Positions 43,207 to 46,531 of a stretch of 64,000 nt of DNA are shown here, piece by piece (position 1 is the stretch's first letter; each line of letters starts with the position of its first letter). This DNA comes from Streptomyces sp. NBC_00285 (GTDB taxonomy: Bacteria > Actinomycetota > Actinomycetes > Streptomycetales > Streptomycetaceae): positions 3,844,001 through 3,908,000 of the forward strand of contig NZ_CP108055.1 of assembly GCF_036174265.1 (NCBI RefSeq). Reading direction: 5' to 3'. The notes beneath the pieces are model-generated. The model did not search any database, was not told where the DNA came from, and worked only from the letters and a program-made list of their open reading frames with translations. The position numbers and the translations under genes are program-made.

Positions 43207-46086
<2,880 letters not shown>

Positions 46087-46140
46087 GGTCCTCAAAGCTC
46101 CATCGATCGTCTCTGCCAGCGGCTGTGTCGTCCGGAAACG

Positions 46141-46165
46141 AAAAATCCCCTCGCACAGGAGGGGA
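46141..46165 (-). terminator. leuS attenuator terminator
   Basis: TCCCCTC (46146-46152) and GAGGGGA (46159-46165) form a perfect 7-bp stem with a 6-base loop; on the minus strand it is followed by TTTTT. It is 55 bases upstream of the leuS start and about 45 bases after the leader stop, so it is an intrinsic terminator inside the leuS leader. Confidence 0.9.
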
Positions 46166-46166
46166 C

Positions 46167-46220
46167 GCCGCGCCGATTCCGACCACGTCTTCACCGGTGG
46201 TCGGGACTGATCAGCGCGGC
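46167..46220 (-). promoter_or_regulatory. leuS leader hairpins upstream of terminator
   Basis: GCGCGGC (46214-46220) pairs with GCCGCGC (46167-46173), enclosing an 8-bp stem CCGACCAC/GTGGTCGG (46179-46186 with 46197-46204). The outer stem overlaps the last codons of the leader peptide, so a ribosome stalled at the Leu codons would change its folding. Placement fits a pause/regulator stem of an attenuator. Confidence 0.7.
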
Positions 46221-46249
46221 TCACTAAGCAGAAGGCGTACGGCACGCAT
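46211..46249 (-). CDS. Leucine leader peptide of leuS
   Basis: A 12-residue reading frame, [12 protein letters not shown], with three consecutive Leu codons (CTT CTG CTT). It ends 45 bases before an intrinsic terminator and 125 bases before leuS. Slow decoding of these codons when Leu-tRNA is scarce should stall the ribosome and reshape the downstream hairpins, allowing read-through into leuS. A TACTCT hexamer 7 bases upstream (46256-46261) would start transcription near the ATG, so the leader may be translated leaderless. This is the same logic as amino-acid operon attenuators; the coupling is inferred, the codons and hairpins are seen. Confidence 0.85.
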
Positions 46250-46255
46250 GGCGTC

Positions 46256-46261
46256 AGAGTA
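46256..46261 (-). promoter_or_regulatory. Candidate leuS -10 element
   Basis: TACTCT on the minus strand, 6 bases before the leader-peptide ATG, suits a -10 box whose transcription start coincides with the ATG. No strong -35 is seen. Confidence 0.4.
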
Positions 46262-46531
46262 CCGCAGCCGTTGAGCAAGCCGCGACGAACTTACGTATGC
46301 CTCTGTGGCACCGGGTGCCGCACTCGCCGCCGCAGTCGAGAGCACCGTCCCACCCGACAGGAACTGAACAAAGATCAAAAGTTACTTCGCGTAACAGCTA
46401 CTAAGGGGCATCGCAGCAGCCCCATAGTCGTTTGATAACAACGCAATAACTCAAACGTCGTACCCGCCGGTATGGCGCCACTTAGAGTGCGGCAGCGGGA
46501 CCGCCTTCCCGAACCGCTCGGAGTTGCCCCC
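46262..46531. other. AT-rich divergent promoter region
   Basis: About 270 bases between the divergent leuS leader and the di-heme membrane-protein gene, with lower GC than elsewhere (46370-46460). A perfect inverted repeat GTTAC-TTCGC-GTAAC is at 46381-46395 and GGGGC...GCCCC near 46405-46423. They may be operators; no regulator is adjacent. Confidence 0.45.

Follow-up and report, generated by a model that had tools for sequence, protein, structure and literature searches.

Results

The leader region of leuS

The leuS gene, encoding a leucyl-tRNA synthetase, is preceded on the minus strand of the window (the whole stretch of 64,000 nucleotides from Streptomyces sp. NBC_00285 that was analysed) by a short leader open reading frame, two RNA arms that pair with each other and enclose a hairpin, and an intrinsic terminator (Table 1). 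A preliminary description of this region had proposed a leucine attenuator composed of a 12-codon leader with three consecutive Leu codons, an 8-bp inner stem and a perfect 7-bp terminator with TTTTT, and each of these parts is present as described. The leader starts 163 nt from the ATG of leuS (46086), in agreement with the earlier statement that all parts lie within 165 bases of the start of the gene. The outer stem that had been placed over the last codons of the leader also exists, but it contains 10 bp rather than 7 and takes in the stop codon. In the predicted fold of the whole leader, the outer helix and the terminator stand side by side and are both present.

Table 1. Features of the leuS leader region in the window (positions are those of the window).
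Feature	Position	Strand	Basis or remark
-10-like TACTCT	46256..46261	minus	6 nt 5' of the leader ATG; read from sequence
Leader ORF, ATG to TGA, 12 codons and stop	46211..46249	minus	sequence; peptide is that of published leuL2
Leu codon run CTT CTG CTT in the leader	46234-46226	minus	sequence
Last Leu codon CTT, 8 nt 5' of arm 1	46226..46228	minus	spacing and codon constant among loci
Arm 1, GCCGCGCTGA, stop codon within the arm	46211..46220	minus	pairs with arm 2; covariation
Hairpin of 8 bp enclosed by the two arms, strands CCGACCAC (46204-46197) and GTGGTCGG (46186-46179)	46179..46204	minus	sequence; not kept in every lineage
Arm 2, TCGGCGCGGC	46167..46176	minus	pairing and covariation with arm 1
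Outer stem, 10 bp, strands GCCGCGCUGA and UCGGCGCGGC	46220-46211 and 46176-46167	minus	one U.G pair
Intrinsic terminator, 7-bp stem TCCCCTC (46165-46159) and GAGGGGA (46152-46146), then TTTTT (46145-46141)	46141..46165	minus	sequence, fold, comparison, covariation
leuS, leucyl-tRNA synthetase, 959 aa	43207..46086	minus	match to TIGR00396 leuS_bact at 899 bits (cut-off 548)

Distribution of the leader

The leader region was matched in 60 of the 61 genomes of the genus, the genome of the window counted (in genome G045 the match covers only 25 bases), and the single genome without a match, G001, is 79% complete. Across the class and the order, protein matches were used to find the regions upstream of leuS, some of which were fetched. 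The leader was identified in 151 of 179 leuS loci, including all 117 from the same genus and 34 of the 62 from other genera, the latter belonging to 11 family labels besides that of the window. These 151 loci were chosen for two adjacent leucines (LL), a TAnnnT at a required spacing of 5-8 nt and the arm-1 motif, while arm 2 was not used; 29 of the same-genus loci had been found through similarity to the leader itself, and genome G013 is counted twice (loci L003 and L041). Two loci were removed, namely L031, which duplicates L001, and L181 (G045, same genus), which has no leuS match and only a weak match to the RNA model (E 0.022). The 28 of 62 other-genus loci without the element by these selection criteria include all sampled loci under the labels f4, f13, f16 and f22, and also L129, in which the element is present but its Leu run has decayed.

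We derived a covariance model from 30 sequences, and under strict filters it matched 32 of 396 genomes of the phylum. Three of these belong to family f74 of another class, in which the leader also precedes leuS and encodes, for example, the peptide MAAALLLSWPR*. A fourth match in the class of f74, in G502, was taken as false because there is no leuS in the surrounding stretch. Within family f28, the model matched 44 of 59 genomes; one genome gave two matches, the second of which is located at G770:C166:7621-7714 (E 1.2e-5).

A DNA pattern made of the Leu codons and the two arms, holding no information on leuS, was run on a public collection of named genomes and gave 65 matches. Directly downstream of 64 of these lies leuS, with its frame starting 16-149 nt further on, and the 65th locus ends 27 nt past the motif. 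According to their titles, the records come from Amycolatopsis, Prauserella, Saccharomonospora, Frankia, Kineosporia, Georgenia, Actinopolymorpha, Phytoactinopolyspora, Streptacidiphilus and others; for six of these genera the taxonomy was checked, and they belong to six orders. Conservation of the leader extends past the genus, to other families and to a second class.

Helix and terminator

The best downstream partner of arm 1 forms 10 of 10 pairs in 140 of the 151 loci, compared with 0.7% of mononucleotide shuffles. The 65 named loci had been picked by both arms, and helix 1 was therefore recounted without any of them in a set of 51 elements, many rows of which came via the RNA model that itself favours the arms. 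In this set, 96.9% of the pair cells pair, which falls to 41-58% when the partner is slid, and changes on both sides occur in 8 of 16 pairs. We counted 43 double-change cells against 9.1 in shuffles, none of 500 shuffles reaching as high a number, and 27 against 6.6 among 42 cluster representatives, 18 of which had been chosen by the pattern; the model had been used to align the sequences (A2 and A3) to the structure. Examples within the helix are a change from C-G to U-A at the seventh pair in 11 sequences, the same change at the fifth pair in two loci of family f32 (L110, L111), and a change from G-C to U-A at the sixth pair in L212.

A stem of at least 6 bp followed by at least four T in the next 8 nt was found in 38 of the 42 representatives, compared with 4.2% of shuffles, and all 117 loci of the same genus have at least five T in the 8 nt after the stem. 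Terminators of the Amycolatopsis type have no clear T run. The helix adjoins the terminator stem at a distance of 0-3 nt in all 42 representatives. The inner hairpin is not a general feature, since fewer than 20 nt separate the arms in 22 of the 42 representatives, although in none of the 117 same-genus loci.

The terminator loop (46153-46158 in the window, and its counterparts in relatives) opens with [CA]TG in 29 of the 42 clusters, which is more regular than a loop needs to be, and this trinucleotide resembles a polymerase pause motif. In an Actinophytocola MAG (L219:1280-1331), the leader and both arms are located before leuS and no terminator stem follows arm 2; this locus was left out of the structure counts for that reason.

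The -10-like element, control codon and leader peptide

A TAnnnT is located before the leader start in all 151 loci, at 6 nt in 138 and at 7 nt in 13, within the 5-8 nt that the selection demanded. The conserved spacing and the published RNA-seq data from S. lividans agree with the earlier proposal of a leaderless start from the -10-like TACTCT, and a leaderless leader is supported in this respect. For the window itself, it is the spacing of the -10-like element that agrees with such a start.

All 151 loci have 8 nt between the last Leu codon and arm 1, and this codon is CTT in 146 and CTC in 5. In the 51 aligned elements, the last Leu codon is CTT in 48, CTC in 2 and CTG in 1, and the penultimate codon is CTC in 29, CTT in 14, CTG in 5 and a non-Leu codon in 3. 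In the window, CTT accounts for 2.3% of the Leu codons in 37 likely genes, and 75 of the 75 Leu codons in leuS are CTG. The leader is a conserved open reading frame whose control codons specify Leu, the amino acid that the product of leuS loads onto its tRNA.

Decayed Leu runs were observed at L129:279-364 (MASQQQRLIGPR), likewise in L211, and at L301:1501-1592 (MAVTVHLPGPR); in L129 and L301 the CTT positioned 8 nt before arm 1 is retained. The stop codon lies upstream of arm 1 in L094, L128, L133, L264, L290, L292 and L304. Because arm 1 survives in these loci, it is kept as RNA rather than as codons for Pro-Arg.

Two types of LeuS behind one leader

The leader precedes two types of LeuS. 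The long type, of 936-959 aa where complete, is found in the window, in Amycolatopsis and in a Jiangellales MAG, and the short type, of 788-857 aa counted from the first match, in Frankia, Kineosporia, Actinopolymorpha, Phytoactinopolyspora and MAGs. Judged by the identity of cut reading frames, Georgenia and f28 have the long type and f74 and f3 the short type. Identity is 54-76% to the reference of the same type and 34-44% to that of the other type. The LeuS of the window is 76-77% identical to those of the Streptomyces loci L223 and L280, and equally so to those of Streptacidiphilus and Peterkaempfera.

A gene of the DegV family (TIGR00762 in the window) follows leuS in the short-type loci L248 and L264 and is located about 2 kb further on in L236, and among the long-type loci it follows leuS in L249 and, after one intervening gene, in L223. 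Among the loci examined, 3 of 13 of the short type and 2 of 16 of the long type have it downstream; some of the remaining loci end too early, and others (such as L229 and L237) have room for the gene and lack it. A replacement of leuS in place, while the leader stayed, would be compatible with these patterns.

Discussion

Relation to known attenuators

In the classical attenuators of the trp, leu and his type in E. coli, the antiterminator is defined and the leader carries a ribosome-binding site. The leuS leader resembles them in having its control codons immediately 5' of an arm whose partner arm precedes the terminator; it differs in that the leader in the window appears to be leaderless and in that an antiterminator conserved among relatives was not found.

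The element in the window is already known, having been published in Streptomyces. For S. avermitilis and S. coelicolor, attenuators of the classical type have been predicted upstream of leuS, and both leaders are stated to possess antiterminators (Seliverstov et al., 2005; PMC1262725). They share with our loci a leader open reading frame with Leu codons and a terminator before leuS, whereas they were described for some Streptomyces only and with an antiterminator; the element was found here in many more families, and an antiterminator is not conserved. In the 2021 reannotation of S. lividans TK24, leuL2 (SLIV_24828) is described as a leaderless gene upstream of leuS, followed by a hairpin and a stretch of uridines (PMC8079986). 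The leader peptide of the window is identical to that of leuL2, which is likewise located directly before leuS, and a text search for the peptide in the open-access literature had this reannotation as its sole match. The published description of leuL2 contains no difference from the element in the window, and conservation, paired arms and an antiterminator do not form part of that description (PMC8079986). A search of the open-access literature found no published report of the leader outside Streptomyces.

Another short leader open reading frame with a Leu run in Actinobacteria is the LEU element before leuA. According to its description, this element differs by a pseudoknot in which the Leu codons pair with the Shine-Dalgarno box (PMC1262725), and the leuA leader of S. 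lividans is described as being without a typical terminator (PMC8079986).

Proposed mechanism

We propose that this region, with its leaderless leader open reading frame, probably attenuates transcription of leuS in response to leucine by way of the translating ribosome, and that the helix next to the terminator would promote termination. This interpretation draws on the likeness to leuL2, the presence of the element in 117 of 117 and 34 of 62 loci, the covariation, the CTT at 8 nt (an infrequent Leu codon in the window), the persistence of this CTT where the run has decayed and of arm 1 where the stop codon has moved upstream, and the location of 64 of the 65 pattern matches before leuS. From the observed parts, their conservation, covariation and spacing, we infer the direction of the response, the footprint of the ribosome and the route to read-through. 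RNA polymerase would begin transcription at the ATG of the leader, and a ribosome would translate the 12-codon peptide. With ample leucyl-tRNA, the ribosome would clear the last CTT and be released at the UGA, after which arm 1 and arm 2 could form the 10-bp helix abutting the terminator, so that the terminator forms and leuS is left untranscribed. With scarce leucyl-tRNA, a ribosome with the last CTT in its A site would cover approximately the first five bases of arm 1, and with arm 1 covered the helix would not form, termination would be weaker and leuS would be read.

If the footprint of a ribosome reaches about 12 bases past the first base of the A-site codon, a stall at the last CTT would hide the first half of arm 1, while a stall one or two codons earlier would hide little or none of it. 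The 5' arm of the covarying upstream helix, located 8 nt from the last Leu codon, can accordingly be covered by a stalled ribosome, and the last CTT and its spacing are the most constant features of the leader, which agrees with a stall at this codon. The same footprint also provides an argument against the proposed attenuator, as arm 1 would stay uncovered if the ribosome stalled at one of the preceding Leu codons. The geometry predicts that under very severe starvation, when the ribosome stalls at the first Leu codon, termination would be restored. Further observations that speak against the model are the 28 of 62 other-genus loci without the element, the terminators of the Amycolatopsis type with their lack of a clear T run and the missing terminator stem in L219. 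The fold accommodates the helix and the terminator together, so that an influence of the former on the latter is assumed, and the absence of a conserved antiterminator speaks against the model at the read-through step.

Alternative explanations

In the textbook attenuator with three structures, arm 2 would be freed by the stalled ribosome and pair with the terminator loop, thereby blocking the terminator. Such a pairing is possible in the window, where GCGCGG of arm 2 and CUGUGC of the loop form a candidate helix of 6 bp with two G.U pairs, with a predicted -6.5 kcal/mol before the 3' arm of the terminator is made. Antiterminators have moreover been ascribed to the two leuS leaders of the 2005 paper (PMC1262725), and in 31 of the 42 representatives the opening of the terminator 5' arm costs over 0.5 kcal/mol more once arm 2 is freed, although any GC-rich strand might do likewise. 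When each sequence was set against its own shuffles, arm 2 hid the terminator 5' arm more in 6 of 42 representatives and less in 36, and only 17 of 54 distinct terminator loops beat the shuffle mean (63 of the 65 named loci entered this test). A scan for 5-bp helices in the 42 clusters recovered the two known stems as frequent, and the helix between arm 2 and the loop in at most 17%. The next most frequent pairing, between the Leu run and the terminator 3' arm (71%), was not counted, as 18 of the 42 had been fetched by a pattern that fixes CTCCTT and the pairing sets a pyrimidine run against a G run; outside that Leu-run region all others reached at most 31%. Neither the loop shuffles, the helix scan nor the arm-2 shuffles thus revealed a conserved antiterminator in the 42 clusters and 54 loops, and we consider the textbook mechanism unlikely. 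The earlier claim of a complete attenuator is supported in part: the leader peptide, the leaderless start and the terminator are backed by conservation, covariation and the published S. lividans RNA-seq data, and for a helix that would exclude the terminator the conservation did not exceed that of shuffles. Two readings follow, namely antitermination that is weak and limited to certain lineages, or control by the ribosome over the adjoining helix itself, and we favor the latter. A quite improbable alternative reverses the roles, so that a stall at the first or second Leu codon would free arm 1 to form a helix that hinders the terminator or pauses the polymerase, whereas a ribosome at the stop codon would cover arm 1 and let the terminator work. 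The geometry with the above footprint permits this, the close placement of the helix next to the terminator stem in all representatives would suit it, and so would the pause-like trinucleotide at the start of most terminator loops. However, the last CTT, which would be the least important codon under reversed roles, is the most conserved one, and neighbouring helices are not mutually exclusive in the fold.

Genes for synthetases are often controlled by a T-box, a riboswitch or binding of the synthetase to its own leader, and any such control in place of the ribosome is in our view very improbable for leuS here. The Rfam matches at gathering score in the window are two tRNAs elsewhere, and at the leader there are two weak matches far below the cut-off; a T-box is found neither at gathering score nor among the matches up to E 10. 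The occurrence of one leader before two LeuS types that are about 40% identical speaks against a specific contact between LeuS and its leader, and the retention of the Leu codons argues against non-ribosomal control in general. We give almost no credence to a +1 frameshift at CUU-A that would join the leader to leuS and produce an extended LeuS. CUU followed by A is a slip-prone type of site, and the frame of leuS is open upstream through the entire leader in the window (43207-46278), but it is open as far as the Leu run in only 49 of 109 same-genus loci and the phases vary (56, 28 and 25), which refutes the fusion as a conserved feature.

Implications for the evolution of leuS regulation

We tentatively suggest that the leader represents an old leuS attenuator of the Actinomycetota that works without an antiterminator, in which a single CTT at a fixed distance of 8 nt may decide whether a 10-bp helix forms at the base of the terminator and completes it, and that the leader may have been kept while leuS was swapped between two distant types of synthetase. 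The element in the window alone adds little, as it is already published, and what deserves attention is how widely the element occurs, that its control codon is fixed and that no antiterminator was found to be conserved. It is an RNA element supported by covariation for which Rfam release 15 gives no gathering-score match in the window, and it occurs in eleven further sampled family labels and in a second class, whereas the open-access literature speaks of Streptomyces. The findings also raise doubt about whether the leuS leader switches through an antiterminator. Loci with a single remaining Leu codon, with a moved stop codon or with the other type of LeuS constitute a natural set for testing these hypotheses.
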